A stretch of DNA of 64,000 bases from Tenericutes bacterium MO-XQ. GTDB lineage: Bacteria > Bacillota_I > Bacilli_A > Acholeplasmatales > Acholeplasmataceae. Numbering within the stretch: the first letter of the stretch is position 1; every line of letters begins with the position of its first letter. Where the stretch lies: the NCBI GenBank assembly GCA_002838185.1, contig CP017948.1:62001-126000 (forward strand), given 5' to 3'. The notes below the pieces were generated by a model, which saw only the letters and a list, made by a program, of their open reading frames with translations, did no database searches and was not told the DNA's origin. Positions 11,518 to 44,338 of the stretch are shown one piece after another. The position numbers were made by a program, and so were the translations under genes.

Positions 11518-11593
11518 GGCCCGTTGGAGAAACGGTTAACTCACATGCCTTTCACGCATGCACTCACGGGTTCGAATCCCGTACGGGTCACCA
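11518..11593 (+). tRNA. tRNA-Glu (anticodon UUC); integration target
   Basis: A 76-base cloverleaf: acceptor GGCCCGT with ACGGGTC, anticodon loop CTTTCAC (TTC), T arm GGTTCGAATCC, encoded CCA. Its last 12 bases are repeated at 16738-16749 and 44327-44338, which marks it as the attachment site of the mobile DNA that follows. The tRNA itself is intact. Confidence 0.97.
11582..11593 (+). repeat. att core copy A (left end of element 1)
   Basis: TACGGGTCACCA, the 3' end of tRNA-Glu. The match with copy B extends leftwards through the T-arm sequence CGAAT with few mismatches. Confidence 0.85.
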
Positions 11594-11606
11594 ATGCTAT
11601 CAGTGT

Positions 11607-11638
11607 CCTTATCTCGTGTAGAGATAAGGGCTTTTTTT
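11607..11638 (+). terminator. terminator directly after tRNA-Glu
   Basis: CCTTATCTC pairs perfectly with GAGATAAGG around a GTGTA loop and is followed by GCTTTTTTT. It belongs to the inserted element and restores termination to the tRNA operon. Confidence 0.85.
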
Positions 11639-11848
11639 GTCTTTGTTAAGCTGTTAAAACACTGGAATATAATGTGTTTTGATGTCGTTATGGTATTGAT
11701 TTATGAGTGTTTAAAAACATCAAATTAGTTCGAAAATCCTAATTTAGGGTGTCAACACCTGTTTTTGTAAAATTTATGACAACATAAGCAAAATTACCAC
11801 CTGTAAAAGAAAGTCTATAACAAGTCTGCAAAATATGCTTAAAAATAC

Positions 11849-11868
11849 AACTTATGTTGATATAAGTT
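11849..11868. repeat. inverted repeat in the element end, copy 1
   Basis: AACTTAT (11849-11855) and ATAAGTT (11862-11868) around GTTGAT. The same 20 bases recur at 17006-17025, so it is likely a protein-binding or recombination site. Confidence 0.65.
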
Positions 11869-11900
11869 TTAGGAATATTTGTTATTTTTGCTGTGATAAG

Positions 11901-11916
11901 CGTGGTAGGCGTGGTA
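11901..11916 (+). repeat. CGTGGTA repeats, 9-base period (two units)
   Basis: CGTGGTA at 11901 and 11910. Similar period-9 CGTGGT/GTGGT groups occur at 17050-17074, 19516-19530 and, reversed, near 33843-33870. Confidence 0.55.
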
Positions 11917-12045
11917 ATCATAGTGACAAATGTATTTTTTTCATTGAATATATGCATATGGTATGATTTTGAGAAATTAAGTGTTTTGTTGAAGAATCAG
12001 ACTAATGATAATATAATGCAAAGAAAGCAAAAATGATATAAAAAT

Positions 12046-12080
12046 AAAACAGCATTTCTTTGGAAAGAACTTACTGTTTT
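12046..12080 (-). terminator. terminator of the 12080 gene (minus strand)
   Basis: AAAACAG/CTGTTTT outer arms and TTCTTT/AAAGAA inner arms form one long hairpin; on the minus strand it is followed by TTTTATTTTT. Confidence 0.6.
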
Positions 12081-12403
12081 TATATTGCCGCAATAATTCC
12101 GTTTAATACAAGTAGGAATATTCCATAGATGATCCAAAATGCTTTGCTTCCGTTAATCTTAAATGGTAACAAATTGAGTAGTATTCCAACTATAAAATAT
12201 GTAAAATTTCCTATTAGGTATTCTTTGCCTTTATCGACAAACATCTGAGTGAGTAAGCCTTGCATAGTTGGATTATTTATAACGCTTTGCCAAATAGCTG
12301 AAGCAAATGTTGCGATAATTTCCCAGTAGATTGCGATAGTTGTCGGGATACCCACTACTATAAACAATAGAATAGTAAGTCCGATGATTTTATCTTTATC
12401 CAT
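12080..12403 (-). CDS. small hydrophobic membrane protein
   Basis: About 107 residues with about three TM segments and no charged catalytic motif. I take the ATG at 12403 (MDKDKIIG...) because the Shine-Dalgarno GAGGAGG lies about 10 bases before it and only one base before the alternative ATG at 12412. It is divergent from the MerR-like gene. In size and shape it could be a holin-like or defence-effector membrane protein, but no family is recognised. Confidence 0.7.
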   Translation of the reverse strand: MDKDKIIGLTILLFIVVGIPTTIAIYWEIIATFASAIWQSVINNPTMQGLLTQMFVDKGKEYLIGNFTYFIVGILLNLLPFKINGSKAFWIIYGIFLLVLNGIIAAI

Positions 12404-12543
12404 TATTAGCATACCTCCTCGTAATTATAGTATATCATATATATATTTTGGTTAAATAACAAAAAGTACTCATACTATTTGTGAGTCAGTTGAATTTTTT
12501 GATTTAGATAACCGTATATTCAAAATAAAATAAAAAAAGGGTA

Positions 12544-12571
12544 TTGACATTGTTACGTAATAGTGTATAAT
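12544..12571 (+). promoter_or_regulatory. promoter of the MerR-VWA operon
   Basis: TTGACA (12544-12549), 16 bases, TATAAT (12566-12571). The spacer holds the palindrome TTACGTAA. It matches the sigma-gene promoter at 15204-15231 in 22 of 28 positions. Confidence 0.8.
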
Positions 12572-12616
12572 TAGGTTATGAGCAGAATTGGAATCGGTTG
12601 AAAGTGAGGTAAAAGC

Positions 12617-13015
12617 ATGGATAAAACAAAATATAAAATCAGTGAACTGGCCGAAGCTGCTAGTGTAACTGTAAGAACAATTAGATATTATGTGAGTAAA
12701 GGCTTATTGACACCACCTAAAGAAGATGGTATGTATAGTTACTATTCAGAAATTAACCTGAAAGAACTAAAACTAATTAAGGCATATCAAGAAAAATATT
12801 TACCACTTGATGTTATCAGAGAAAAACTACTCAAAGGGGAGATGGATGTTGATGTAGATTCAAAAGTAGACAAACATATAAACGACACAGAGTTTTTATA
12901 TCGAAAAGTGCTAGTTGTACCAGGAATAGAATTAAGCGTAAGAGAAGATGTATTAGATAAAGATAAAGTTGAAACATTAGTCAACTACATTAAAAAAATA
13001 ATCAATAATATCTAA
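12617..13015 (+). CDS. MerR-like transcriptional regulator
   Basis: 132 residues. The N-terminal winged helix is of MerR type: YKISELAEAASVTVRTIRYY then GLLTPP and a YSEINLKELKLIKAYQ segment. A short C-terminal helical part (about 95-132) replaces a ligand domain, and there are no metal-binding Cys. RBS GAGG precedes the ATG. It is 13 bases from the VIT/VWA gene, so they are one operon; the palindrome in its own promoter suggests autoregulation (inference). Confidence 0.85.
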   Translation: MDKTKYKISELAEAASVTVRTIRYYVSKGLLTPPKEDGMYSYYSEINLKELKLIKAYQEKYLPLDVIREKLLKGEMDVDVDSKVDKHINDTEFLYRKVLVVPGIELSVREDVLDKDKVETLVNYIKKIINNI

Positions 13016-13028
13016 TTGGAGGAAATCA

Positions 13029-15134
13029 ATGGAAAATGAAGTAAATAAACGAGAAGTACTATATAACATTTTAGATGAAGAAAGTAATATATCACTTACC
13101 AAAGTTATTTATGCAGGCAATATAGTTGGTAAATTTAATACTTGGAAAGTTGAACAAGAGTATTTAAATTTAAATAAGGATAAATCTGTTGAAATATATT
13201 ATACATTTCCTTTAAAAGCTGGTGCAACTGTAACATCATTCACAGCAACCATTGGTGATAAAGTCATAAAAGGAGTAGTCAAGGAAAAACAACAAGCTAA
13301 TAAAGAGTATCAACATGCAATCGCAAAAGGTGATTCTGCTTATATGATGGAAAGATTCGATTCTAATATTTTTAAATTATCTTTGGGTCGTGTAATGCCA
13401 GATGAACTTGTTAAAATCTCGATCAGTTACATTGAAATGTGTGATGTATATGATAATCAAATTGATATATTAGTACCAACTCTAGTGGGGCAAAGATATA
13501 ACGATGTTGTTTCAAATAGTTTAGCAAGAGAAGACAAAGTAAGCTATACTTGCGATTTCATTGTGAATATTGAGGAGAATTTATCAGTTAAAGATGTCAA
13601 CTCAAGCTCACATAAGATTAAAGTTATTAACAATAAACAAGTCGTTAGTTTAAACAATCGTTTGAATCGTGACTTTAAATTAGAGATCGAATTAAACAAA
13701 GAATTTAAAACAACTGCACTTGTTAATGGACAGTATTTATTAATTGACTTAATGCCCAAATTAGAAGAACCAAAGGAAAGAGTTCAAAAAAAATACGTAT
13801 TTGTTATTGATAGATCAGGTTCAATGCGCGGAAGAAATATAAACGCAGTAAAAGATTTGCTGAAAGCTGTGTTAACACAATTAGAAGCAGATGACTTAAT
13901 CGAAATAATTTCGTTTGGAAATCATCATGTTTCTCTGTTTAATTCATTAAAAACTGTCCGTAATGTAAGAGCAGAATTAAATGATTATATAAGTACACTC
14001 TATGCAAACATGGGAGGAACGGAATTACTAAGTGCATTGGAAATGTCACTGTCATATTCAAATGATGCAGATATTATATTAATTACAGATGGTCAAGTAG
14101 GAAATGAAGATTATATTTGTAATCGGATTGCAAATATAATACAAAATAACCATTTGTTCTTATTTGGTTTAGATATGAATGTTAATGCTTCATTTTTAGA
14201 TAAAATTGCAAAAGTTGGACACGGTAAAGCCTATTATTTTGCATCCGACGAAAATAATTTTACAAAAAAACTTATCAGAACTTTTTCCAATATTAATGGT
14301 GTAATTTCATCTAAAGTTAAACTTACAACAAATAATAAAGAGTTAGATCGTTACATTTATTCCGACACATTATTTAATTATGAATATTGGACAGCTATAT
14401 TAAAACTTGAAAGCCTTACAGAAGATATCGTTATAACAATTGATGATACACCAATAGTCATCAAGAACGAAAAAATTATTGCTACAGATCTTGAATTGAA
14501 TAAAGTTTTCGCTACCTGTAAAATAGGATATTATGAATCATTGATGAGTAGAAACTTCAATAAAACTAAAGGGTATCAAGATTTAATTGTTGAAATAGCT
14601 ATCGAAAATCAAATCGATTCAAAACATACGGCATTCTTAGCAATTAATGAAAGAGATGATAAAGTTTATGATATGCCACAAATTGAAGAAACACTTATTG
14701 AACACAGTTTTGATCGTGATATAGTAGTAGACTGTTTTGAATATCATGAGAGTTATGACGAGGTTGTTTTACAAGCATTTCAGATTAAAGAAGACCAATT
14801 GGAACCAATGGCTGACCGATTTGAACTTAAGACTCCTACAAGTATCAAAAAAACTAATCGCACTCTGAAAGTTAACCTAAATGAACTTATTGAAGCAATA
14901 AAATCACCTGATACTTTTAAAGTAATAAAATCGCCTGATTCTTATAAAGAAAGAGTTGTATTAATACTTTCATTAATACTAGAAATCAACATAAAGATTA
15001 GAGCAATAGATTCGAATAAAACAATTTCTAATGAAGTAAAAACATTGATTAATAAAATTAAAAGTATGGATGAAGGGATTTATAATCAATTATTTAATGG
15101 CGTACAAGAAACAATCAAGGCATTATTTATATAG
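13029..15134 (+). CDS. VIT and von Willebrand factor A domain protein
   Basis: 701 residues. Residues about 10-135 form a VIT (vault/inter-alpha-trypsin) domain with the typical TFPLKAGATVTSF and KEKQQANKEYQHA segments. A VWA domain follows from about 255, with MIDAS residues D261-x-S263-x-S265 (DRSGSM), a conserved Thr at 331 (GGTELL) and DIILITDG near 350. The C-terminal about 250 residues are not recognised. There is no signal peptide, so it is cytoplasmic. VWA proteins usually hold metal-dependent protein contacts. Operon with the MerR-like gene. Its function in a mobile element is unknown. Confidence 0.88.
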   Translation: MENEVNKREVLYNILDEESNISLTKVIYAGNIVGKFNTWKVEQEYLNLNKDKSVEIYYTFPLKAGATVTSFTATIGDKVIKGVVKEKQQANKEYQHAIAKGDSAYMMERFDSNIFKLSLGRVMPDELVKISISYIEMCDVYDNQIDILVPTLVGQRYNDVVSNSLAREDKVSYTCDFIVNIEENLSVKDVNSSSHKIKVINNKQVVSLNNRLNRDFKLEIELNKEFKTTALVNGQYLLIDLMPKLEEPKERVQKKYVFVIDRSGSMRGRNINAVKDLLKAVLTQLEADDLIEIISFGNHHVSLFNSLKTVRNVRAELNDYISTLYANMGGTELLSALEMSLSYSNDADIILITDGQVGNEDYICNRIANIIQNNHLFLFGLDMNVNASFLDKIAKVGHGKAYYFASDENNFTKKLIRTFSNINGVISSKVKLTTNNKELDRYIYSDTLFNYEYWTAILKLESLTEDIVITIDDTPIVIKNEKIIATDLELNKVFATCKIGYYESLMSRNFNKTKGYQDLIVEIAIENQIDSKHTAFLAINERDDKVYDMPQIEETLIEHSFDRDIVVDCFEYHESYDEVVLQAFQIKEDQLEPMADRFELKTPTSIKKTNRTLKVNLNELIEAIKSPDTFKVIKSPDSYKERVVLILSLILEINIKIRAIDSNKTISNEVKTLINKIKSMDEGIYNQLFNGVQETIKALFI

Positions 15135-15203
15135 TATTTAATTTATATAGCTAATTTCAAATTATTATTGTATTTTTTAGTATTATGAAAACACTTTAAC
15201 CAA

Positions 15204-15231
15204 TTGACATAGTTATTTAGATGTGTATAAT
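15204..15231 (+). promoter_or_regulatory. promoter of the sigma-factor gene
   Basis: TTGACA (15204-15209), 16 bases, TATAAT (15226-15231), closely similar across the spacer to the promoter at 12544-12571. Confidence 0.8.
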
Positions 15232-15268
15232 GCATATATAATCTATAAAATAAATTAGGAGGAACTAA

Positions 15269-16177
15269 TTGAAACCAGAAAAAGAACCAAGCAATTTTGA
15301 TTTGGAGAGACTTGAAGAAGAATTATCAAATACCAAAGAGCATTTCAATTCAAGTGATCCAGTGAGTATCTATTTAAATGATATTGGTCAAATTGATTTA
15401 CTGACAAGAGAAGAAGAGATTAAACTTGCTAACACGATATTATTCAGCCGTGATTCTACAGAAGAAAACGTAATTAGACTAGGAAAAGAAGCTAGAGACA
15501 AATTAATTGTTGCTAATCTTAGATTAGTTGTGAGTATAGCTAAGAAATATACACAGTCCAATGTTCCATTTATGGACCTTATTCAAGATGGGACAATGGG
15601 TCTTATGAAGGCTGTAGATGGGTATGAAGTTGAAAGAGGATTTAAATTTTCGACATATGCGACTTGGTGGATTAGACAATCCATATCACGTTCAATATCT
15701 AACAATTCTAGAACCATTAGGGTTCCAGTATATTTTAGTGATATGTTGTTAAAAGTTCGAAGAGTTAAGAGAAATTATTTTGATAAACACGGTATAGAAC
15801 CAAGCATTGAAACTGTTTCTAATATAACTGGAATATCAACAGCTTCACTAAAGACAATCAGTCTTTACAGCAATGATATTTTATCATTAGATCAGTCTGT
15901 TGGAGATGGAAATTCTACGCTTAGCGATTTAACTGAAGATACAAGCAACTTAAATCCTGAGGAACATAATAAAGTAAAAGAACTTGAGGAATTCGTCATT
16001 GCAAGTTTACAAGAATTAAATGAACGAGAACGAACTATTATTAAAATGATATTTGGAATAGATTCTGATGTAAAAACTTTAGAAGAAATCGGCCAACATT
16101 TTGATATCACAAAGCAGCGTGTAGGACAAATTAAAATTAAAGCAATAGAGAAATTGCGTAAGAAGATTATTATTTAG
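15269..16177 (+). CDS. extra sigma-70 family factor (RpoD/SigA-like, group 2)
   Basis: 302 residues starting at TTG with a strong AGGAGG. It has region 1.2 (DPVSIYLNDIGQIDLLTREEE), region 2 (LRLVVSIAKKY...DLIQDGTMGLMKAVDGYE, FSTYATWWIRQSI), region 3, and region 4.2 HTH (TLEEIGQHFDITKQRVGQIKIKAIEKLRK). It lacks a long region 1.1. Because it lies inside element 1, between att copies, it is a mobile, secondary sigma factor rather than the housekeeping one. Its targets probably include element promoters. Confidence 0.93.
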   Translation: MKPEKEPSNFDLERLEEELSNTKEHFNSSDPVSIYLNDIGQIDLLTREEEIKLANTILFSRDSTEENVIRLGKEARDKLIVANLRLVVSIAKKYTQSNVPFMDLIQDGTMGLMKAVDGYEVERGFKFSTYATWWIRQSISRSISNNSRTIRVPVYFSDMLLKVRRVKRNYFDKHGIEPSIETVSNITGISTASLKTISLYSNDILSLDQSVGDGNSTLSDLTEDTSNLNPEEHNKVKELEEFVIASLQELNERERTIIKMIFGIDSDVKTLEEIGQHFDITKQRVGQIKIKAIEKLRKKIII

Positions 16178-16281
16178 TATTGGAATATTTTAGAAATTAG
16201 ATGTATAGAAAAATAATGTATAATTAATGCTATAAAAAGATGTCAATTAAAAAAATCAAAATAAGAATTCAGTTAAATAAA

Positions 16282-16290
16282 TGTTATAAT
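16282..16290 (+). promoter_or_regulatory. extended -10 before the 16323 gene
   Basis: TGtTATAAT at 16282-16290, about 32 bases before the ATG; RBS AAGGAG follows. Confidence 0.5.
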
Positions 16291-16322
16291 TTATATAAAT
16301 ATAAACTTAAGGAGATAAAGTA

Positions 16323-16634
16323 ATGAGATGGAAAACAAATGAAGATAAGATTTGCAGTTTAGTATTTATTAAAAATCATGTATTAAATGAATTAGATTTA
16401 TCAATATCAATACAAGAAGCTCAGCATTTTGGTGTGGATAAGACTGAAGGTAGTATTAGGATGAAGTTTAATAACATTGCATCACTTTGTGATGAATATG
16501 GAATTAAGACTTCTAATAGAGTAGGGAGATTGGAACACTATTCTAGACAGAATCATGAGGAATTTATATCTATTAAAGATTTTTCATTTATTGAGATTAT
16601 GGAAGAACTAAACAAAGCTAAACAAGCATTATAG
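16323..16634 (+). CDS. small protein, SANT/HTH-like DNA-binding shape
   Basis: 103 residues, good RBS AAGGAGATAAAG. The pattern RWKTNEDKICSLVFIKNHV...SIRMKFNNIASLCDEYGI resembles an N-terminal helical module seen in front of some nuclease domains of restriction proteins, but no nuclease follows. It could be the remains of such a protein or a stand-alone DNA-binding protein of the element. Assignment is tentative. Confidence 0.65.
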   Translation: MRWKTNEDKICSLVFIKNHVLNELDLSISIQEAQHFGVDKTEGSIRMKFNNIASLCDEYGIKTSNRVGRLEHYSRQNHEEFISIKDFSFIEIMEELNKAKQAL

Positions 16635-16737
16635 ACTGAAAATAAAAGATATTTGTGAGCTCAAACTAAATGGGTTAGAGATGATTTTTGCGCAAAAGAT
16701 ATAGAGATCCCATTATAAATTAGGGGCTCGAATTCGT

Positions 16738-16749
16738 TACGGGTCACCA
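16738..16749 (+). repeat. att core copy B (junction of elements 1 and 2)
   Basis: TACGGGTCACCA. Upstream, CGAATTCGT corresponds to CGAATCCCG in the tRNA T arm, so about 21 bases of tRNA 3' end are recognisable (16729-16749). Confidence 0.85.
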
Positions 16750-16762
16750 TCGCTATCAGTGT

Positions 16763-16794
16763 CCTTATCTCATGTAGAGATATGGGCTTTTTTT
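16763..16794 (+). terminator. terminator, copy 2
   Basis: CCTTATCTC and GAGATATGG (one mismatch) with a following T run; counterpart of 11607-11638. Confidence 0.7.
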
Positions 16795-17005
16795 GTCTTT
16801 GTAAAGGCATTAAAAGCATTGGAAATAAAGAGTGTTTTCTGATATAAAATCATTGATTTAAGCAAGCAAAAAATCAAAAATCAATCTCATTTTTCCTAAT
16901 TTAGGGTGTCAACACCTGTTTTTCTAAAACTTATGACAATATTAGCAAAATTACAACCCAAAAAAGGAAGTCAATGTTAAGTCTCAAAAATAGTGTAAAA
17001 ATACC

Positions 17006-17025
17006 AACTTATGTTGATATAAGTT
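17006..17025. repeat. inverted repeat in the element end, copy 2
   Basis: AACTTAT (17006-17012) and ATAAGTT (17019-17025) around GTTGAT; identical to 11849-11868. Confidence 0.65.
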
Positions 17026-17049
17026 TTAGGGGCTTTCTCATTTTTTAGG

Positions 17050-17074
17050 CGTGGTTCTCGTGGTATGCGTGGTA
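17050..17074 (+). repeat. CGTGGT repeats, 9-base period (three units)
   Basis: CGTGGT at 17050, CGTGGTA at 17059 and 17068, exactly nine bases apart. Confidence 0.6.
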
Positions 17075-17209
17075 ACATAGGATTATTAATTTTGTAAAAG
17101 TCCTATGATTTATGGCATATAAGGTAAGAATATTTTTTCAGGATCATCTAAATGACATGTAAGACATACACAAATTCAAAATTAAGTTTATAAAAACGCA
17201 AAAAAACTA

Positions 17210-17238
17210 TTGACAAATAAATTACGTTTTGATAAACT
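17210..17238 (+). promoter_or_regulatory. promoter of the methylase-specificity fusion
   Basis: TTGACA (17210-17215), 17 bases, TAAACT (17233-17238). The spacer contains ATTACGTTTT, which faintly recalls the TTACGTAA in the element 1 promoter. Confidence 0.6.
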
Positions 17239-17270
17239 TAAATTGAAAATAAAATTTGGAGGAACTTAAA

Positions 17271-18953
17271 TTGGAAAAGTATAGTGAAAAATTTTGGGAA
17301 TTAGCAAATAGAATGAGAAGTAGAATACCTAGAGAACAAGTAACTGAGTTTATCGTATCGTTTCTCTATGATTATGGAAACGAGAATGATTTTTTTGGTG
17401 GTGCATCAACAGAACTTTTGAATATTGCTGATGAAACTGTAAAGAGAATTCCTAAAGACATAATTTATGACTTAAAAGAACATTTTGATCAATTATCAAA
17501 AGAAGAGATAAAAACTACTCTTATGGATACGCTACTATTTGATGATAAATTTATTGATAAAACATCTAAGGATTTAGGAGATTTGTCTTGTAAACTGTTA
17601 GAATTAATGGAAGATGATGTGCTGTTTGATCTTGGTTCCGGAAGAGGTAGTTTCTTGTCTATTGCATCAGACTATGCAAATAAAGCTAATATAAATGTAA
17701 AAGAATTAGCTGGAATAGAGATTAATCTTAATCATCTCTCCATCTCAAGAATGATAATGGAGATATTGCTAGAAGATAGAACTACTGTATATAATATTGA
17801 TTACGCAAACATACTATCAGATAGCCTTTTAATCACATATAATAAAGGATATGTGTATCCACCATTAGGTATGAGATTTATTGGTTCTGATCCTTATTTC
17901 AAAACTATTTTTAGTGAAATTATTTTGACAGCAAAAAATTCATTTGAACTAGTTTTCATAGATAAGCTTTTAGCAAACCTCAAGGGGGAAAATAAGAGAG
18001 GGGTTGCTTTAGTTACAGGAAGAACCTTATTTAATGTAGCGGATCGTGAATATAGAGAAGCTCTTGCAAATAGTGGTTTACTAGAAGGCATCATTGAACT
18101 TCCACAAAATATTTTAGAAAACACTTCGATTAAGTTATTTTTATTGATTTTTAGCACAAATAACTCTCAAGTTCGTCTACTAGACGCTTCAAATGTAGTA
18201 ACGACTTTAGATAAAAATAATCAATCGAATACTTTTTCAAATATTATTTTTAAGATGTATCAAAGTGATTCTGTCAGTACAAAATCGCTCAAAGAAATGA
18301 AAGAACTTCAAAATTGGATGCCGTCAAATGCTTTATTAAGTATAGAAAAACCAAAAAATGGAATCAAATTAGAAGAGGTAGCAGAAGTATTTACAGGTTC
18401 GCAATATACAATAAGTAAGTTTAAAGATAGATTTGTTGACAAAGATACAAAATATAAAATATTAACCTCAAGTGACATCAATGATGGATTAGTTGATTGG
18501 AGAAATTTGCAAAATATTGAGGTAAAAGATACTAAGTTGGATAAGTTCTCTATAAAATATAATGATCTAATCATAACTAGTAAATCTTCTAAAATAAAGA
18601 TGGCTGTTGTAGATTTTACTCCAACTGATCACATTATTGTCACAGGTGGGATGATAATAGTAAGGCCTGATTATACTAGACTAAATCCAACATACTTAAA
18701 GATATACTTAGAATCTGAACAGGGACAAAATGTTTTAAGAAGTATTCAAAAAGGTATTACGATAATTACGATTAATGCAAATAGTCTAAAAGATATCATT
18801 GTTCCGCTTATCAATATTCAGAATCAACAAAAAATGGCACGGAAATATAATGATAAGTTATCATCATTATTAGCATTTAAAAATGAAATTGAGAAAATAG
18901 AGAATGATTTGAATAATTTTTACTATGAAGAAATGGGTGAAAAGAGTAAATGA
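17271..18953 (+). CDS. type I-like DNA methylase fused to one HsdS recognition domain
   Basis: 560 residues from TTG at 17271 (GGAGG 8 bases upstream; an earlier TTG at 17256 overlaps the RBS). Residues about 1-115 are helical. A SAM-binding domain follows with motif I FDLGSGRGSF (near 127-136) and AGIEIN. Motif IV, normally NPPF/Y, is not found; the nearest match is SDPYFK (near 210). From about 370 a single target-recognition domain and a coiled coil follow (VAEVFTGSQY...NQQKMARKYNDKLSSLLAFKNEI), as in half an HsdS. So it may bind specific DNA without methylating it, or methylate with an altered motif. It overlaps the next gene by ATGA. Confidence 0.8.
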   Translation: MEKYSEKFWELANRMRSRIPREQVTEFIVSFLYDYGNENDFFGGASTELLNIADETVKRIPKDIIYDLKEHFDQLSKEEIKTTLMDTLLFDDKFIDKTSKDLGDLSCKLLELMEDDVLFDLGSGRGSFLSIASDYANKANINVKELAGIEINLNHLSISRMIMEILLEDRTTVYNIDYANILSDSLLITYNKGYVYPPLGMRFIGSDPYFKTIFSEIILTAKNSFELVFIDKLLANLKGENKRGVALVTGRTLFNVADREYREALANSGLLEGIIELPQNILENTSIKLFLLIFSTNNSQVRLLDASNVVTTLDKNNQSNTFSNIIFKMYQSDSVSTKSLKEMKELQNWMPSNALLSIEKPKNGIKLEEVAEVFTGSQYTISKFKDRFVDKDTKYKILTSSDINDGLVDWRNLQNIEVKDTKLDKFSIKYNDLIITSKSSKIKMAVVDFTPTDHIIVTGGMIIVRPDYTRLNPTYLKIYLESEQGQNVLRSIQKGITIITINANSLKDIIVPLINIQNQQKMARKYNDKLSSLLAFKNEIEKIENDLNNFYYEEMGEKSK

Positions 18954-19480
18954 TGTACTCCAGCAGACAAATCTCAGAAATAAAACTAAAGATTATCAAT
19001 AAGATTTCAAGAGAAGTTGATCGTGCAAATCTTGACGGTACAGTTGGAGGCATTTTAGAAAAGTATAATATAGTGTATGAGGAATTTGGGACTATTCCAG
19101 TAGATACTAGAACTATGAAAATATTAGTATTTGGTGTATTATCTGGTAAGAAAAGTGATTATCAATTAGCTGTAAAAAAGATGGGTATAAATCCAGACCA
19201 TGTGCATTTTATTGATAACTATCACGAATTACAGAAATATCCAGTTGCCAAACTAAAAAATTCAGTAGAATATTCTGATATTTTATTTGGACCTGTTCCT
19301 CATAGCCAAAATTCTATGGGGAACACATCTAGCTTTTTAGCTACTATTAAGCAATCGCCTAAGGAATATCCAAGATTAATTGAAATGGTAGCAAACAACA
19401 AATTAAAAATAACAAAAACTAATTTTGAACATGCGATCATAAGAACTAGATATTACGAAAATGTAGACGAACTGAATTAA
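18950..19480 (+). CDS. conserved-looking partner of the methylase fusion, function unknown
   Basis: 176 residues. The central part (ILVFGVLSGKKSDYQLAVKKMGINPDHVHFIDNYHELQKYP) reads like alternating strands and helices of a Rossmann-type sensor, followed by DILFGPVPHSQNSMG and a basic tail. No catalytic motif is recognised. ATGATG at the start overlaps the stop of the fusion gene, so the two are translationally coupled and probably act together. Confidence 0.8.
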   Translation: MMYSSRQISEIKLKIINKISREVDRANLDGTVGGILEKYNIVYEEFGTIPVDTRTMKILVFGVLSGKKSDYQLAVKKMGINPDHVHFIDNYHELQKYPVAKLKNSVEYSDILFGPVPHSQNSMGNTSSFLATIKQSPKEYPRLIEMVANNKLKITKTNFEHAIIRTRYYENVDELN

Positions 19481-19515
19481 TCGATTTTAATTACCACAAA
19501 TTTTAAAGTAGTACG

Positions 19516-19530
19516 TGTGGCATGCGTGGT
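19516..19530 (+). repeat. GTGGT-type repeats upstream of hsdM
   Basis: TGTGG (19516) and CGTGGT (19525) in the same nine-base phase as the groups at 11901 and 17050. They lie just upstream of the hsdM promoter region, where a repressor or activator could bind. Confidence 0.4.
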
Positions 19531-19556
19531 TAAACATATACTTAATGAGCTAATAA

Positions 19557-19565
19557 TGATATAAT
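19557..19565 (+). promoter_or_regulatory. extended -10 of the hsdMSR operon
   Basis: TGaTATAAT at 19557-19565, 43 bases before the ATG of hsdM; RBS GGAGGG at 19598-19603. Confidence 0.6.
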
Positions 19566-19607
19566 AATTATAAATTTACAAAATTTTATCAAAAATTGGA
19601 GGGAACA

Positions 19608-21110: not shown

Positions 21111-21119
21111 GGTTATGAT

Positions 21120-33853: not shown

Positions 33854-33870
33854 ACCACACATACCACAGG
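33843..33870 (-). repeat. reversed GTGGT repeats, 9-base period (three units)
   Basis: ACCAC recurs at nine-base spacing (AACCACATA, AACCACACA, TACCACAGG), the complement of the CGTGGT groups at 11901, 17050 and 19516. The first unit lies in the end of the preceding gene. Confidence 0.45.
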
Positions 33871-33883
33871 AAGAAGGTAAGAG

Positions 33884-34099: not shown

Positions 34100-34328
34100 A
34101 AGAATAGTTGTTGATGAAAAAGAAATAGCCAACTTAATAGCTATTAGAACTGGAATGGATGTGGACTTCATAAGAACACTAATGCATTACTATGAGCGTA
34201 TTATATTACACTCAGCCATGAAAGGGAACTTTGTTAGAATTAGCAACTTATTTACAATCTACCATCAGGGCAATGAAATAGAAATCAAGTTCACAGAAAA
34301 AGCAAAAAAGCACTTAAAAAAGAAGTAG
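34086..34328 (+). CDS. HU-like small DNA-binding protein
   Basis: 80 residues. The pattern EIANLIAIRTGMDVDFIRTLMHYYERII...GNFVRISNLFTIY resembles the helical and strand part of HU/IHF proteins, with a truncated arm region. ATG 34086 is preferred (AGGAG ten bases upstream); TTG 34080 is the alternative. It overlaps the XRE gene by 14 bases. Confidence 0.6.
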   Translation: MNQSKRIVVDEKEIANLIAIRTGMDVDFIRTLMHYYERIILHSAMKGNFVRISNLFTIYHQGNEIEIKFTEKAKKHLKKK

Positions 34329-34866: not shown

Positions 34867-34908
34867 ATCATCTCCATAGAGATAGTATATCATGAAAATA
34901 TCCTCATG

Positions 34909-34957
34909 TAACGTCCTGGTTAAAAAATAATTTTCCAACAAATCTTTGTAGGACGAA
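34909..34957 (+). repeat. regulatory repeat, copy 1
   Basis: About 49 bases containing TTAAAAAATAA and AACAAATC.T.GTAGGAC. It recurs upstream of the small gene at 37556. It lies about 35 bases before the DUF927-like gene. ACGTCCT/AGGACG arms may pair in this copy but not in the second. Confidence 0.6.
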
Positions 34958-34989
34958 AATAAAACGAGCCTACTGAAAGGAAAGTGACT

Positions 34990-37411: not shown

Positions 37412-37478
37412 GAATTCATTTAGGCAATGGCTCAAATAGATTGAGAATCAATGCATTAAATCCCTTCGCAAAACCATT

Positions 37479-37527
37479 GTAACACCTTGATTAAAAAATA
37501 ACGTCAGAACAAATCATCGTAGGACAT
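37479..37527 (+). repeat. regulatory repeat, copy 2
   Basis: Counterpart of 34909-34957 (shared TTAAAAAATAA and AACAAATCatcGTAGGAC). It is placed about 30 bases before the small ORF at 37556. Confidence 0.6.
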
Positions 37528-37761: not shown

Positions 37762-39291
37762 ATGAGAAGATTAAGTAATGACGAAGGAAAAGTTTTAGAT
37801 AATATAACAAAACTTTTAGGTGAAAAAGTTCCAACAGCTATATACGCTAGAAAATCATCTAAAGATCTATCAAAAGAATCCTTAGATACACAAATAAATA
37901 TATGTAAAAATTTCATTAAAGGGAACAAAAACCACCTAAAATTAATTAAAGTTTATCAAGAAGATGAAACATCAGGTATGGTTATCAAAAAAACAGATGA
38001 ATTTCAGAAAATGATTGAAGCTGTTGAGGAAGGTTTCATCAAAGTAATCATAGCAAGTCGATGGGATAGATTTCGTAGAGATAAATTAGACATCGCTAAA
38101 ATAAAAGAATTATTCAAGAAGTATGGAGTAATGCTAATTATAGTTGAAGATTCAGGTGAGAAATCAGCACTATCTTTGCTACAAACCGAGATGGTTACAT
38201 CGTTCAATCAATTTTATGTGCAAAAAATCGCCGAGGATACAAAAGCAGTTCTAATAAACAAAACCTCAAAAGGGCGTACTGGAGGTGGTGTACCTAACTA
38301 CGGTTATCAGGTCAACGAGGATAAATTTCTTGTAAAGAAAATTGAAGAAGCTGTTGTGGTTGCTGAAATATATGACAAGTTTGAGCTGGGGTATTCTTAC
38401 AATGATATTATAGAAGACTTGAAAGCTCGTAATATTAAAACAAGGAAAGGTAATGACTTTTCCAAAAGTACAATTCATGACATATTAACAAATGTGAAGT
38501 ATATGGGCGTCTATAGATATAATAGACAAGATAGAATACAAAGCAATTTTGTCGTTAAGCATTTCGATGAAGTTTGGGTTGAAGAAGGTATTAAAGAACC
38601 TATAATATCTAAAAAGCAATTTGAAGAAGTTCAAAAGTTGATGGAATTAAGACAATTGAGTCACAAAAATACCGATTATCTACTATCTGGAATAATGGAA
38701 TGTGAGGTTTGCGGTTCCAAAATGGTTGGTTCATCACAAAGTGCTGGAAAAGGTAAGCCGAGAAGAAAACACTATATTTGCCCTAAACATGAAAAGAGAA
38801 ATGGTGGAACATGCTCTAACAAAGGAATCGATGCATCTACAATTGAGAATCAGGTCAAGCAAAATGTCCTTGATGCTGTGAATACCTATATCAAAACAGA
38901 TTTATTTGATATTAGTGTGTTTAAAGAGGCCTTTGAGTCAAAGAAGAGATTAGTTAAATCAATCAATAAGTCTATAGATCACGCAAAAACCAGTAAAAGA
39001 AACACTCTGGATCGACTAATAGATCCAAACACACGAGATGAAATAAAAAAAGAACTTCAAGATAGAGTTTCAGAAATCAACGAGGAAATAAAAGATTTGG
39101 AAAATCGAAAAAAGTTTGCAGAAGATAGCATTAAACAACATCAGATGTTAGCAAAAAAGCAAAAAATTCAAGATATCGAAGCAACAAAGCTATTTGGAAA
39201 TGAACCTATTGTCAAAAGGTTAGTAAAAGTTATTGTGAACCAAGTCAAAATTGGAAAAGAAGATATACAAATTAAAATATTAGAAAAATAA
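37762..39291 (+). CDS. large serine recombinase 1
   Basis: Site-specific integrase/excisionase of 509 residues. The catalytic domain has Y28-x-R30-x-S32 (catalytic Ser 32) and SRWDRFRRD; a recombinase domain follows (GYQVNEDKFLVKKIEEA...), then a zinc ribbon (CEVCGSKM...CPKHEKRNGGTC, about 314-353) and a coiled coil (about 385-465). All key residues are present. RBS AAAGGAAAGG. Candidate driver of integration of element 2. Confidence 0.95.
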   Translation: MRRLSNDEGKVLDNITKLLGEKVPTAIYARKSSKDLSKESLDTQINICKNFIKGNKNHLKLIKVYQEDETSGMVIKKTDEFQKMIEAVEEGFIKVIIASRWDRFRRDKLDIAKIKELFKKYGVMLIIVEDSGEKSALSLLQTEMVTSFNQFYVQKIAEDTKAVLINKTSKGRTGGGVPNYGYQVNEDKFLVKKIEEAVVVAEIYDKFELGYSYNDIIEDLKARNIKTRKGNDFSKSTIHDILTNVKYMGVYRYNRQDRIQSNFVVKHFDEVWVEEGIKEPIISKKQFEEVQKLMELRQLSHKNTDYLLSGIMECEVCGSKMVGSSQSAGKGKPRRKHYICPKHEKRNGGTCSNKGIDASTIENQVKQNVLDAVNTYIKTDLFDISVFKEAFESKKRLVKSINKSIDHAKTSKRNTLDRLIDPNTRDEIKKELQDRVSEINEEIKDLENRKKFAEDSIKQHQMLAKKQKIQDIEATKLFGNEPIVKRLVKVIVNQVKIGKEDIQIKILEK

Positions 39292-39332: not shown

Positions 39333-40898
39333 ATGAAAAGATATGCATGCTGCTACTGTAGATACTCATCTGATAAGCAGCAACAACAAAGTATTGACCA
39401 TCAATTAGAAAAAATTGATGCTTTTTGTAAAAAACACGACATAATATTGATAGAAAAATACATTGATGAAGCTCAAACAGGGACAAATGATCAAAGAAAA
39501 GCTTTTCAACGCATGATTGAAGAGAGTGAACACTCTAAATGGGGCTATCTACTTGTATACGACCTATCAAGACTCGCTAGAAACGTTGAAGATCAGATGT
39601 TTTATCAAAAAATCCTTAAACAACATGGCATTATGGTCATAAGTGTAGAAGAAAAATTCGATAGTTCACCAGAAGGACATCTGTTTTCACTCATTACTGC
39701 AGGGATAAATGAATACTATTCAAAACATTTGGCTAAAAGATCCTTTGCAGGTGTGATGCAAAATGCTAAAAAAGGTATTGTAATTGGTGGAATTCCACCA
39801 CTTGGCTTTGATGTAGATGAAAATAAACACTATATAATTAATGAAAAAGAAGCCGAATCAGTAAAAATAATATTTGAGAAAGCACTTTTAGGTTGGTCAC
39901 ATCGAGAAATAAGAGAACATTTGAATGCAAAAGGATATCTAACAAAAAGAGGAGTTCCCTTTTCAGATAGCTTCTATGAGATACTTAGAAATCGCAAGTA
40001 TATTGGCGAATATGTTTTTAATCTATCAACAAAGAAAAAGAGTAGAGGTTCAAGAAAAGATCGAACGAATCACGAAGATGACATCGTTAGAATACCAGGC
40101 GGATTACCACAAATCATTGACAATATAACATTCGATAAAGTTCAGCATATGCTAAATAAGCGAAGAAATTCCATGACATTTGAATTCAGACCTACAAAAT
40201 ATCTCATGAGTGGAAAACTAGAATGTGGATATTGTGGATCTTCATTTAGTGGCGGATCATCATATGCAAAGAAAAATAATATTCCATATGCTTACTATGG
40301 ACACTTGAACTATAAACAAGGGCGATGTAAAGCCAAAGATACAAGAGTTCTATATATTGATAACTGGATAAAACAGATCGTTGTCAGTGATTTTCTTTCA
40401 CAAAAAGATCTATCAGAAAGAACAAAGGATATAAATAGACAAATTTTGGAAGAAAGACAAAGAGTTCAGCAAGATATTAAAGAAATAAAACAAAAAATGA
40501 TAATCATTGAATCATTACTCTCAGATAAAGCAAAACAACTGGTAAGTAATAACTTCTCAATCTTTGCTTTAGAAGACGCAGAAGAAACAAAGAATGAAAT
40601 GGCAAAACTTAAAAGAGAACTAAGAGATAAAGAGCGAAGACTTGAGTTGATGAAACGTATAACAGTAGAAAGACTAGCTAATGTCATTAGAAAATTCAAA
40701 AAGAGATGGAGAGAATTTGAAAATCCCGATGATCTTGGAAAATTTCTATACGATATGCTATCCCGAGTTGTCATAACAAATGAAATCATAAGAGCATATA
40801 TAAACTATGACATGATAACTAATAAACTTTGTGATTTTGATATTGAAATAGCGAGTATTGAAAGAAGTAAATTAATGAAAATCTGGCGAAAATACTAA
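39333..40898 (+). CDS. large serine recombinase 2
   Basis: 521 residues. Catalytic Y8-x-R10-x-S12 (YCRYSSDKQ), recombinase domain, a zinc ribbon (CGYCGSSFSGG...GRCKA, about 290-330) and a C-terminal coiled coil. Clearly related in plan to recombinase 1 but different in sequence, so the pair is not a recent duplication. RBS AGGAGG. The two are likely to act together or on two different sites, as CcrA/CcrB do in staphylococcal cassettes. Confidence 0.95.
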   Translation: MKRYACCYCRYSSDKQQQQSIDHQLEKIDAFCKKHDIILIEKYIDEAQTGTNDQRKAFQRMIEESEHSKWGYLLVYDLSRLARNVEDQMFYQKILKQHGIMVISVEEKFDSSPEGHLFSLITAGINEYYSKHLAKRSFAGVMQNAKKGIVIGGIPPLGFDVDENKHYIINEKEAESVKIIFEKALLGWSHREIREHLNAKGYLTKRGVPFSDSFYEILRNRKYIGEYVFNLSTKKKSRGSRKDRTNHEDDIVRIPGGLPQIIDNITFDKVQHMLNKRRNSMTFEFRPTKYLMSGKLECGYCGSSFSGGSSYAKKNNIPYAYYGHLNYKQGRCKAKDTRVLYIDNWIKQIVVSDFLSQKDLSERTKDINRQILEERQRVQQDIKEIKQKMIIIESLLSDKAKQLVSNNFSIFALEDAEETKNEMAKLKRELRDKERRLELMKRITVERLANVIRKFKKRWREFENPDDLGKFLYDMLSRVVITNEIIRAYINYDMITNKLCDFDIEIASIERSKLMKIWRKY

Positions 40899-40938: not shown

Positions 40939-41150
40939 GATTTCATAAAACTGAATAGTCATGAAAATCAGTATAGGAAGAGGGTTTTCACACGTTTTAG
41001 TGGTAAAATACAGGTAAACATAACGAAATTAAGTAAAGCTTAAATTAAGCATAAGCAAAAAAATGAAAATTTAAGTGTAAATTAAGAAATGCTCCATGGT
41101 GTTTTCATCAAGTGATTGTTACAATGAAAATAAAAAAGGAGATTTTTGTA

Positions 41151-42401
41151 ATGGATAATGTAAAAGCAGGGCTTTATATTAAGCAAAGAATTAAGGAAAA
41201 AGGTATTACTCAGGAACAACTAGCTGAAGAGATGAATATTTCAAGCTCAGCAGTATCACAAGTTCTTAGCGGTAAAAACATGTTCGATGTCATGAACCTT
41301 CAGGTATTAAGTAGAATCTTGGATGAACCCATTGATAAAATACTTAACGCTGGGGAAGCACCAGAAACATATTTAGAAATACTCGCCAAAAAGACAGAAG
41401 TAGAGTATAAAAAACAAGATCCTAATCTTGAAAAGTTCAAAGAAAAAGATCATAAAGATAATACATTGTTTGATTATGTACTTAAGCATCAAAATATCGA
41501 ACTTATTAGATTGTTTAATCAAAAAATTATATCTGATAAGGTAAACGATATTAGATTAGCGACAATTCTGATAGCTAACGAAGAAACAAAACTACTTGAG
41601 CAACTTTTCAATAGCTATAACTTCAAAAGAAATATGAATCTTGGTAGAGATGTCTCAGAACTAAATCGAATAACTAAAAAGATATCTGATTACACATCAG
41701 AAGAGCAAGAATATTTTAAAGTACTAGCACAAAGCAATAACGAAAAGATATTTGAAATAACAGGATGTATAAGAATTCATGAAAACAATGTAAACTATTT
41801 CTCTCCATTTCTATATATTGCTATAGTCTACGATCAAGTACATATATTAAAGTATGATCATGAACAACGTTTCAAGAATCAAGACTCATCAGGAAATAAA
41901 CTGACACATATAGTGGATTCGAAATTTTCTAAACTCCTGAAAACATCAATTGAACATAAGAGTATGCGATGTATTGACTATTGCTATAATATGCTAAGCC
42001 AATTTAATTTGCAAAACTATTTCAATGATTTGATAGGTACTAAGGATAAGGATTTCATTCAAAACTTCATAGAAAAATATAAAAACAAAAATACTGATCA
42101 TTTTTACCATAGCACAAATGACAACGGTAAGTTCAACAATGTAGAATCACTAAAACAATTAATAGAATCTAACAATGTTGAAATTTTTGAATACTCGATT
42201 GAGTTTTCAACCCAAGAGGCACTAGATGAAGCACTATACGTTACAAAAGGAAATCAAATAGAAATTGTGAAACTACTTGTATCTAAAGGAGCAAGATTCA
42301 TGTACTATGATAGTTACGATAGCAAAACAAAACACATTCAAGAACCATTAACAGCAATGGTCAAGTACCTATTTGATGAACTGAACAAGAAGAACAAATA
42401 A
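41151..42401 (+). CDS. XRE helix-turn-helix plus ankyrin-like protein
   Basis: 416 residues from ATG 41151 (AAGGAG 9 bases upstream; an upstream ATG at 41112 has no RBS). Residues 5-62 are a Cro/CI HTH (LYIKQRIKEKGITQEQLAEEMNISSSAVSQVLSGK). The remainder has ankyrin-like helical pairs (NTLFDYVLKHQNIELIRLF and ALYVTKGNQIEIVKLLVSKGA). A DNA-binding head with a protein-binding body suggests a regulator that senses a protein partner. 250 gene-free bases with the terminator and AAGCTTAAATTAAGC-like sequence precede it. Confidence 0.8.
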   Translation: MDNVKAGLYIKQRIKEKGITQEQLAEEMNISSSAVSQVLSGKNMFDVMNLQVLSRILDEPIDKILNAGEAPETYLEILAKKTEVEYKKQDPNLEKFKEKDHKDNTLFDYVLKHQNIELIRLFNQKIISDKVNDIRLATILIANEETKLLEQLFNSYNFKRNMNLGRDVSELNRITKKISDYTSEEQEYFKVLAQSNNEKIFEITGCIRIHENNVNYFSPFLYIAIVYDQVHILKYDHEQRFKNQDSSGNKLTHIVDSKFSKLLKTSIEHKSMRCIDYCYNMLSQFNLQNYFNDLIGTKDKDFIQNFIEKYKNKNTDHFYHSTNDNGKFNNVESLKQLIESNNVEIFEYSIEFSTQEALDEALYVTKGNQIEIVKLLVSKGARFMYYDSYDSKTKHIQEPLTAMVKYLFDELNKKNK

Positions 42402-42440
42402 TAGATACACAAAAATACATTACAAAAGGGGGCAACAGTA

Positions 42441-43211
42441 ATGACAAGAAAAGGGTATTTTAACGAAAAAAATAAATTCTTTAGGAATCTTGAAATCATC
42501 AGAAGTATCCAAGATACTATCAATTTGATTGAGTATAAACTTCAAAATGAGTTAGGGCTCAAAGAGTGGCATAACTTAAGTGGGCAACTTGAAGCATTAA
42601 AAGGATTATATAATAAACCAATAAAAGATATTTTTGAAGAAATTAAAACCACAAATGAAGAAATAAAATCCTTAAATGATGATTTAGAACTTTTTGAAAT
42701 GCATCTTCAGTTTCTCAAAGGATATAAAGAAGGATGTGAAAAAATACTAAATCTTCATAGACTCTACAAAGAGAGAAATGAAGATATAAAAATACTTGTA
42801 TATGTTCAAGAAGAAGCGCTCAAAGATATACTTATAATTTTATTTGACTCAGCAGGAATCATTTATGATAGTACTTTGAGTGAGAAAACCTCAGTTTTCA
42901 TATCAACCAATATTGAGAAATTAAACCAACTAGCTACTTCAATAGATTGTTTCAAATTTGTATTTACCGTTAAGCCTCTAAATAATAGAGCATACAATGT
43001 TAGCAGCGAGGAAGCACAAAATATTAAAATGCTAAAAAACCAACTTTCCGAGAAATTAGAGTTTAAACACAATAGAGAAGACAACTTGTTTTCAGATGTA
43101 AAGTTACTAAATCAGGAATGGTTTGAAGCAACATATGTCTATATAAACTCTATGATGTCAATTGAACAAATCTTTTTACTAATGTTGAGCAGCTTAAGAT
43201 TGAAGGAATAA
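42441..43211 (+). CDS. unknown coiled-coil protein
   Basis: 256 residues, mostly helical, with a long coiled-coil-like region about 60-115 (FEEIKTTNEEIKSLNDDLELFE). RBS is a G run (GGGGGC). No catalytic motif. It lies 39 bases after the XRE-ankyrin gene and probably shares its transcript. Confidence 0.75.
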   Translation: MTRKGYFNEKNKFFRNLEIIRSIQDTINLIEYKLQNELGLKEWHNLSGQLEALKGLYNKPIKDIFEEIKTTNEEIKSLNDDLELFEMHLQFLKGYKEGCEKILNLHRLYKERNEDIKILVYVQEEALKDILIILFDSAGIIYDSTLSEKTSVFISTNIEKLNQLATSIDCFKFVFTVKPLNNRAYNVSSEEAQNIKMLKNQLSEKLEFKHNREDNLFSDVKLLNQEWFEATYVYINSMMSIEQIFLLMLSSLRLKE

Positions 43212-43318
43212 TTTGTGAGTTTGTTTAAACCCCACATAGCCTTCTCTATATCGAGAATATTTATTTTGAAAGTATTCAATAAAGAGATTTAAGATTTATA
43301 AATTGAAGGATAAAGATT

Positions 43319-44215
43319 ATGATAAAAACAAACTATAGTTTAATGGATTATCGAAAAAATAAATATGAGCCATTAAGGAAAATAATTGCAGAAAAAGAAG
43401 CACAAAAAATAATAGACGCATCATCATACTTGATTAAAAACAAAACATTGGTGGAATACTACTATATCCTAAAGCAAAATATAATCGTCTTAGAAAACCA
43501 TCTGGATTCTTTGCAAAATAAAAGCGAAGATAAGATTGATGTTTTTGCAGAAATCAATAGACACACATCAAACTTTCTTAATTCATTTTATCAGTATATA
43601 GAGTTCTTCGAATATAATTTCAAAGACAACTTTAAAACGATTAAGGAAAAATACTACGATAATCATTTTGAATATAGACTCTTTTATCATTTAAGGATAC
43701 ATGCTACACATCATAGCCTAGCAATAAGTGAATTACAATTAAAATTCTTAGAAAATGCAATAAAAAAAAGTGCACAAATTGATCTAACTCGATTAGAAAA
43801 AAATAGCAGACTGAATAAAGACTTTCTATCTGAAATAAAAGAAAAAACGGATAAGAAAGTAGATCTTAAGTCGTCCATGATAAAGTTTAAGACAATGATA
43901 CTAGATTTGCATAATGATATGGTAAAAGAGATTTCTGGTAATATAATTAGCTCCTATAAATGCCTAATAAATAATATGGATGACTACGATAATCTTCAAG
44001 GAGAGGTGTTTCTTGAGCGAGGTGAAAAACCAATCTTAAGTCTATTCGGCACGTTAACAAAATTTCTATCTGAGTTTTCTATAATGTTTATTTACTATGA
44101 AGAAATCCAACAAAATACAGACAAGTATCTCGATTCATACAAACTTTTTTTAGAATTATCAAAGCTATATTTCGTTGAAGAAGGCGTGTGTTGTGCTCCA
44201 AAAAATAACTTATAA
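43319..44215 (+). CDS. unknown all-helical protein
   Basis: 298 residues, helical and Lys-rich. EYRLFYHLRIHATHHSLAIS near 122-140 has the spacing of Arg and His seen in some HEPN ribonucleases, but the match is loose. It is the last gene before att copy C. RBS AAGGAT. Confidence 0.7.
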   Translation: MIKTNYSLMDYRKNKYEPLRKIIAEKEAQKIIDASSYLIKNKTLVEYYYILKQNIIVLENHLDSLQNKSEDKIDVFAEINRHTSNFLNSFYQYIEFFEYNFKDNFKTIKEKYYDNHFEYRLFYHLRIHATHHSLAISELQLKFLENAIKKSAQIDLTRLEKNSRLNKDFLSEIKEKTDKKVDLKSSMIKFKTMILDLHNDMVKEISGNIISSYKCLINNMDDYDNLQGEVFLERGEKPILSLFGTLTKFLSEFSIMFIYYEEIQQNTDKYLDSYKLFLELSKLYFVEEGVCCAPKNNL

Positions 44216-44326
44216 GATTCTATTTTAGAGTAATTATGTTTCAAAAAAATAAGCACTAATCCGCTTTATAGAGACAAAAAACAGACATTTAATCTTTTTC
44301 TAGTCACTGATAGTTATGTGAACCCC

Positions 44327-44338
44327 TACGGGTCACCA
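44327..44338 (+). repeat. att core copy C (right end of element 2)
   Basis: TACGGGTCACCA, preceded by CCC as in the tRNA T arm, so the match is about 12-16 bases. Downstream sequence differs from that after copies A and B, as expected for chromosomal flank. Confidence 0.8.

Follow-up and report, generated by a model that had tools for sequence, protein, structure and literature searches.

The tRNA-Glu locus

We analysed a 64,000-nucleotide stretch of the genome of the wall-less Tenericutes bacterium MO-XQ (Acholeplasmataceae; contig CP017948.1, positions 62,001 to 126,000), hereafter the window, in which a tRNA-Glu gene is followed by what is likely an array of site-specifically inserted DNA cassettes. 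The 12-base 3' end of this gene, TACGGGTCACCA, forms the core of each repeat. It occurs exactly three times, at 11582, 16738, and 44327, always on the forward strand (as are all features below unless noted), where 0.01 matches would be expected by chance with up to one mismatch allowed. Copy A (11582 to 11593) is the end, CCA included, of tRNA-Glu(TTC) (11518 to 11593), which ARAGORN places directly after tRNA-Ser(GCT); together the two genes (11418 to 11593) make up the insertion site and the fixed left border of the array. Copy B (16738 to 16749) is preceded by CGAATTCGT, the right half of cassette 1, and copy C (44327 to 44338) by another right half, GTGAACCCC. The first-pass annotation had described this triple repeat, units of 5.1 and 27.6 kb between its copies, and about 330 bases of diverged homologous DNA after the first two. 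Each of these descriptions held up on measurement: cassette 1 is 5,156 bp (11594 to 16749), cassette 2 is 27,589 bp (16750 to 44338), and the DNA behind copies A and B aligns over 328 bases with 78 per cent identity (81 and 84 per cent in ungapped blocks).

Only two elements had been counted, and a terminator at 44354 had been read as sequence beyond them. However, the DNA directly behind copy C (44339 to 44425) matches a model of twenty-seven left ends of one cassette class found elsewhere in the family (E = 3.4e-19), a class different from that behind copies A and B, and the terminator belongs to this left end. A decayed core, TAGGAATCAACA, follows at 47406 to 47417 with eight of its twelve bases kept; its position is backed by a terminator just behind it (47428 to 47476), which gives a weaker match to the same model (E = 3.3e-5). 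Because copy C is followed by a cassette left end, and the decayed core stands before a matching terminator, the window as we read it probably holds three cassettes; the first two units stand as described, but the count probably does not. Cassette 3 (44339 to 47417, about 3.1 kb) is probably a relic, and the decayed core is the probable right border of the array. Besides the left end with its terminator it has three open reading frames (ORFs), encoding a DUF6487 protein and proteins of 492 and 257 amino acids, none of which had a match in the stretches compared.

To the right lies an aldo-keto reductase gene (47449 to 48354, its true start probably later). Comparisons drew on a family sample of eighty-eight genomes from fifteen genera, in which G000 is the host of the window, and this gene is the array's right-hand flank in G022, G023, G024, G025, G031, and G040 as well; in G022 it stands about 16.6 kb past the last exact core. 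In G031, G037, and G040 the final core, TACGTGTCACCA, differs by a single base; an alignment covered those of G031 and G040. No empty site bearing the aldo-keto reductase flank was found in fourteen further stretches.

No recombinase gene was found in cassette 1, a putative satellite. Its ORFs encode a 110-amino acid protein without a Pfam family (12080 to 12412, reverse strand), a MerR-family regulator (12617 to 13015; PF13411, E = 2.8e-18), a VIT and von Willebrand A (VWA) domain protein of 701 amino acids (13029 to 15134; PF08487, E = 7.5e-30), a sigma-70 family sigma factor of 302 amino acids (15269 to 16177; PF04542, E = 9.7e-21), and a 103-amino acid protein, again without a Pfam family (16323 to 16634). 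The MerR, VIT-VWA, and sigma-70 genes (12617 to 16177) make up a cargo operon that may represent a defence or stress module not described before. Against the MzaA model the sigma factor reaches 271 bits (cut-off 800), although other sigma models score equally high, and the MerR protein matches mad1 weakly.

Cassette 2, the putative helper, opens with type I restriction-modification cargo (17256 to 25500: an N6 methylase/specificity protein, an unknown, HsdM, HsdS, and HsdR), followed by several unknown genes and a small-gene backbone (31223 to 34328: DUF3846, RadC, DUF960, HU-like, helix-turn-helix, and unknown proteins). Next come a Cch-like replicative helicase of the DUF927 family (34984 to 36759) and two adjacent large serine recombinases of 509 and 521 amino acids (recombinase 1, 37762 to 39291; recombinase 2, 39333 to 40898). 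The cassette closes with three right-end genes (41112 to 44215; a helix-turn-helix protein and two unknowns) without a match in the other stretches compared. The best solved structure for the helicase is 5dgk (E = 2.8e-33), which we take to be the Cch helicase of SCCmec, a staphylococcal cassette chromosome (SCC), although its database title reads only 'Active helicase'. Backbone genes of cassette 2 recur in recombinase-bearing cassettes of G022, G038, and G078, each of which has the recombinase pair together with RadC, DUF960, and HU-like genes, while most of the remaining genes of cassette 2 are absent from those three. Among the Pfam matches of the scanned ORFs of cassettes 1 and 2 there were no relaxase or conjugation genes, the mark of integrative and conjugative or mobilizable elements; several of these ORFs have no family, and the small ORF at 32846 to 33118 lay outside the scan.

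A 48-base repeat, its copies 77 per cent identical, lies before the Cch-like gene (34907 to 34954) and again between that gene and recombinase 1 (37478 to 37525). The G078 helper has weak counterparts on either side of its Cch-like gene (E = 0.034 and 0.061), and none were found in the helpers of G022 or G038. The repeat is a possible shared operator.

Cassette arrays across the family

DNA matching the left end of cassette 1 was found in twenty-four of the eighty-eight family genomes. The 12-mer itself is present in seventy-five, often merely as part of tRNA-Glu. Mapping stretches with at least two cores, with one core mismatch allowed, gave twenty-two arrays and sixty-four core-to-core intervals, one of which (81 bp) may be spurious; cassette 3, whose last core has decayed too far, is left out of this count. 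One array, in G040, comprises seven intervals. Fifteen of the twenty-two arrays open at the tRNA-Ser/tRNA-Glu pair, and the other seven had no tRNA on the stretch examined, for some because the contig starts there.

The recombinase pair occurs in only four of the sixty-four intervals (27.6, 27.2, 28.7, and 24.3 kb). The other sixty encode no protein matching the pair and are small, with a median of 2,335 bp and a range of 81 to 9,809 bp. The first-pass annotation had found it odd that a small unit lacking a recombinase should stand beside a large one that has it. A division into helpers and satellites would account for the contrast.

A scan of GTDB contigs, which may leave out the window's own record, found the pattern GTGAACCNNTACGGGTCACCA in twenty-one stretches, twenty of them in records named Acholeplasmataceae, Acholeplasma, Peloplasma, Mycoplasmatota, Tenericutes, or Bacillota. 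The remaining one (JAUIFE010000052.1) comes from a Holophagae metagenome bin and is possibly a case of transfer or a binning error.

Cargo was examined in the intervals without the pair. Among the 25 of 104 Pfam families listed, IS66 transposase was found in one protein, and the names Fic, RhuM, PvuRts1I-like, NERD, and DpdF, also among the matches listed, suggest defence without proving enrichment. In PADLOC, ninety-five cargo proteins of at least 140 amino acids matched 175 families and ninety-five chromosomal neighbours matched 120; these are counts of families rather than proteins, and the control consists of the first 95 of 110 neighbours, several of them mutual orthologues. Twenty-five families were listed in each case, and those of the control were mostly helicase models. 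Upstream of the array, an ATPase-like gene at 17 to 1186 of the window matches PADLOC mad3 (E 5.4e-66) and is conserved at the same place in the four other genomes of the genus.

Signals common to the cassette ends

Directly behind the core, sixty-one of the sixty-four intervals have a hairpin followed by a T run (called at our own threshold of -6 kcal/mol), against 3.3 expected from shuffled ends. In the window these terminators lie at 11607 to 11638 in cassette 1 and 16763 to 16794 in cassette 2. Farther in is a twin-palindrome motif of about 100 bases, composed of two TTAT-N6-ATAA sites 78 bp apart (11770 to 11870 and 16927 to 17027 in the two cassettes). It stands behind fifty-nine of eighty-four listed cores, two rows of that list having one motif in common, and mostly 140 to 180 bases off. 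Cassette 3 has no significant match to the motif; a marginal one at 44390 to 44481 (E = 0.12) could be a remnant.

The paired palindromes of one copy resemble each other as direct copies to a degree matched by only 23 of 5000 shuffles, whereas 2093 of 5000 did as well when the palindromes were compared as inverted arms of a hairpin; with fifty-two related copies these figures are a rough guide only. Since the palindromes are alike as direct copies and not as inverted arms, they speak for two predicted protein-binding sites. We also considered the left end as a structured RNA and rejected it: an Rfam scan of 11400 to 17300 found, above gathering scores, the two tRNAs only, and the palindromes covary as direct copies rather than as hairpin arms.

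At least two CGTGGTA units with a 9-bp period (iterons) follow the motif in sixteen of twenty-five far-class left ends and in none of the other thirty-four. The background is 4 of 2840 windows of the 64-kb sequence, these left ends included. Cassette 1 has two iterons (11901 to 11916) and cassette 2 has three, allowing up to one mismatch (17050 to 17074); three of the four helper cassettes carry iterons, once each and in the left end. The left end may thus hold a replication origin. Iterons bound by a helicase are described, in the available part of PMC7581432, for Staphylococcus aureus pathogenicity islands (SaPIs) and for the SCC helicase Cch2, which belongs to another family than Cch.

The right halves that precede the core fall into classes, with GTGAACCCC in twenty-three of the sixty-four intervals, GTGAACCAG in eight, CGAAACCGT in four, and variants in the rest. 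Helpers and satellites have ends of the same kinds. At the core, CCCGTACGGG in the tRNA is a perfect palindrome around TA, which makes TA a plausible crossover dinucleotide.

Turnover and transfer of cassettes

Over 2.6 kb to the left of the tRNAs, G000 and G023 are 91.9 per cent identical. G023 carries three other intervals at this site, and none of the window's element genes were found in 50 kb of G023 around it. A relative with all of the genes but without the repeats, which the first-pass annotation had named as the finding that would overturn its reading, is thus the opposite of what G023 presents. That annotation had also looked to related strains for an intact tRNA-Glu without the elements. 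In G009 the tRNA-Ser/tRNA-Glu pair has no second core in the 15 kb examined, as an empty site would, though the right-hand gene differs.

Cassettes also recur as whole units. A 2.2-kb cassette is 91.6 per cent identical from core to core in G040 and G087, which belong to different genera and whose left flanks are only 76.1 per cent identical. Another is 88.7 per cent identical over 2.0 kb in G031 and G033, of one genus. Four cassettes, c11 (G025), c18 (G031), c38 (G034), and c45 (G040), have a right block of about 1.1 kb in common but different left parts, a pattern that may arise if cassettes fuse upon decay of an internal core.

These observations bear on the choice that the first-pass annotation had posed, between separate insertions of one element family at a single tRNA-Glu and a composite element in which an end was duplicated internally. 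Separate insertion is borne out, as independent cassettes in many other arrays are bounded by these ends. Fusion of the kind that c11, c18, c38, and c45 hint at would lend the composite element some colour, but the recurrence of such ends on units that stand independently elsewhere, together with a whole cassette present in two genera in different neighbourhoods, disfavours an internal duplication. The left ends of cassettes 1 and 2 also differ by 22 per cent, and their right halves are of different classes. We therefore regard the composite element as scarcely credible.

Another conceivable explanation dispenses with site-specific recombination and has units at a tRNA hotspot reshuffled by RecA-mediated homologous recombination between the 300-base left ends. 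Within one class, left ends can be 78 to 95 per cent identical, enough for occasional homologous exchange, and cassettes with only one part in common do exist. Yet such shuffling leaves unexplained how unrelated cargo first arrived, why the end at the tRNA CCA is constant, and why units with left ends of different classes lie next to each other. As the main process at this site we consider it very unlikely.

Candidate recombinases

Twelve array-bearing genomes were tested for large serine recombinases, and five (G024, G036, G040, G079, and G087) had arrays but no PF07508 recombinase, though G036 and G079 are only 81 to 82 per cent complete. In eight genomes searched for tyrosine recombinases, PF00589 had no match inside or beside the arrays. 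These two results argue that the small cassettes are non-autonomous. The pair carried by cassette 2 is the only site-specific recombinase found between cores, and in each of the four helper cassettes 0.1 to 3.4 kb separate it from the right core. We infer that this pair is the best candidate for the enzyme that moves the cassettes.

The cassettes could instead be inserted by another serine recombinase of the genome, or by a tyrosine recombinase encoded elsewhere, with the pair a passenger or one of several movers. In favour of this, G000 has eleven PF07508 and six PF00589 matches, all eight genomes searched have PF00589 somewhere, and five array-bearing genomes manage without PF07508. The several right-half classes (GTGAACCCC, GTGAACCAG, CGAAACCGT) could likewise reflect several enzymes. 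Set against this, every PF00589 match in the eight genomes falls outside the arrays, no site-specific recombinase other than the pair was found between cores, where it sits near the right core in four of four helpers, and the helpers share their ends with the small cassettes. On balance a different mover seems unlikely, and we retain the recombinase pair of cassette 2 as the best candidate.

Transport by phages was also considered and rejected: IMG/VR contigs contained no exact right-end pattern, and a search there with recombinase 2 found no relative.

Two further observations concern recombinases at other sites. The eleven PF07508 matches of G000, on contigs C1 and C2, include several in neighbouring pairs, so paired large serine recombinases are common in this genome, some perhaps with other targets. 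In G023, a recombinase at C1:919546-920607 scores 286 bits with the CcrB model (model positions 7-358), well above the window's pair, and is perhaps a closer SCC relative at another site.

A model of the array

We consider it likely that the locus is a tRNA-Glu array of site-specifically inserted cassettes, in which cassette 2 is a self-sufficient, SCC-like helper and cassettes 1 and 3 are satellites mobilised in trans. In this scheme the two large serine recombinases of cassette 2 would act at the end of tRNA-Glu. The tRNA would supply the left half of the site and each cassette the right half, a cassette opening with the tRNA end and usually a terminator. Recombination at the core would then leave the tRNA whole and create a new core where further cassettes could join or leave. 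Because nearly every cassette brings a tRNA 3' end and a terminator, the tRNA gene would stay whole and properly ended. The Cch-like helicase would probably replicate the excised circle and may start from the iterons. Cassette 1 keeps all the cis signals seen in the helper (att core, terminator, twin palindromes, and iterons) and could be moved in trans, while cassettes 1 and 3 would carry cargo only. Mobilisation in trans is suggested by the shared ends and by the absence of recombinases from the small cassettes.

Several observations weigh against this scheme. Twenty-five of the eighty-four cores lack twin palindromes, some of these being plain tRNA-Glu genes, and the G038 helper has no iterons. 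On the CcrB model the pair is outscored by three or more other recombinases of its own genome, with 151 to 161 bits, so other recombinases could act here; moreover, tyrosine recombinases classically target tRNA 3' ends. Recombinase 2 has close relatives (over 300 bits) in only six of 160 genomes of the order, and two of these six (G039 C17 and G077 C192, the latter a short contig) have no exact core on the stretch examined, from which it follows that relatives of the pair may use other sites. The cores of a second array in G031 (C47) and at 1.71 Mb in G022 have no tRNA within 14 kb. Finally, all of the support, including that for the pair as mover, is comparative. The G022 cassette end at 1.71 Mb stands just behind a gene read as carbamoyltransferase-like, and both it and the G031 C47 ends are possible secondary insertion sites.

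A broader proposal, which we put forward tentatively and with somewhat less than even confidence, is that the arrays represent integron-like gene capture built on paired large serine recombinases. Free-living Acholeplasmataceae would share a family-wide pool of minimal cargo cassettes that build up behind tRNA-Glu, each with an att core, a terminator, and twin palindromes, to which one class adds an iteron origin; a rare SCC-like helper would insert and replicate them in trans.

Relation to known mobile elements

Integrons gather small cargo cassettes in an array at one fixed site, most of them without a recombinase. The arrays described here are alike in this respect. They differ in having no tyrosine integrase (PF00589) in or beside the arrays of the eight genomes searched, in that each cassette has its own left-end signals, and in that the recombinase genes travel in a cassette. 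Integron attC sites recombine as folded single strands; what bears on this here is the palindrome comparison above, in which the two sites agreed as direct copies and not as a hairpin. SaPIs and other phage-inducible chromosomal islands are satellites that depend on a helper. The present cassettes resemble them in their putative helper dependence and in combining a helicase with a putative iteron origin (SaPI iterons: PMC7581432, in the part available), but the Pfam matches of cassettes 1 and 2 include no phage packaging gene, and the arrays of the eight genomes searched are without a tyrosine integrase.

The closest likeness is to SCC elements and their composite and pseudo-SCC islands. The layout of recombinases and helicase in SCC (PMC7581432) and the existence of pseudo-SCC and composite islands (PMC6243372, PMC10061031) are described in the available parts of these papers. 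As there, two adjacent large serine recombinase genes, present in all four helper cassettes, stand behind a DUF927 helicase, and a small DUF960 gene is present (33108 to 33431 in the window; PF06124, 79 bits against a cut-off of 25). The DUF960 cut-off was passed in 11 of 395 genomes sampled from the class, including the window's own and G022. Both systems also have short direct repeats that derive from the target gene's end, units in tandem, and units without a recombinase.

The window's helicase falls between likeness and difference: it is a clear homologue of 5dgk but scores 154 bits with the Cch1 model (cut-off 700).

There are also differences. The target is tRNA-Glu and not the 3' end of rlmH, most units are only 0.4 to 10 kb, and units here bring back the tRNA end along with a terminator. 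The helicases of G022 and G038, 35 per cent identical to the window's, are encoded farther upstream, ahead of the small-gene backbone and not behind it as in the window. With the CcrB model (cut-off 900) recombinases 2 and 1 score 134 and 100 bits, far below the cut-off and below other recombinases of the genome, and we rejected them as true Ccr proteins. The locus works like SCC composite islands but falls outside SCC by its site and by the recombinase models.

SCC-type modules at sites other than rlmH are known. The available parts of two papers describe SbCI, a ccrDE island in rimL of Staphylococcus brunensis for which excision was detected (PMC10581047), and SCC-type islands in ssrA, including tandem composites (PMC10061031). 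Those sites are protein-coding or ssrA, and an array of small satellites is not mentioned in those parts. The words recombinase, mobile, genomic island, and integrase are absent from the description of Peloplasma aerotolerans (PMC11122141), and among the matches listed in a search of the open literature (subscription papers and preprints being outside its scope) none concerned cassette chromosome recombinases, or cassette arrays at tRNA-Glu, in Acholeplasmataceae. The new aspects are the bacterial group involved, the use of a tRNA as target, how many and how small the satellites are, and a left end that cassettes have in common.

Most of what is known about SCC-type cassettes concerns large islands of staphylococci and their relatives. 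The arrays in Acholeplasmataceae follow the same logic but at a tRNA gene, and they combine numerous very small units with a helper that is rare. Since a tRNA end and a terminator come with nearly every unit, the site could take repeated insertions unharmed. The arrays bear on whether SCC elements replicate after excision, as iterons lie in the shared left end of three of the four helpers and of many satellites. They also provide naturally minimal cassettes, whose comparison may show what serine-recombinase mobilisation requires in cis (core, spacing, palindromes, and iterons).

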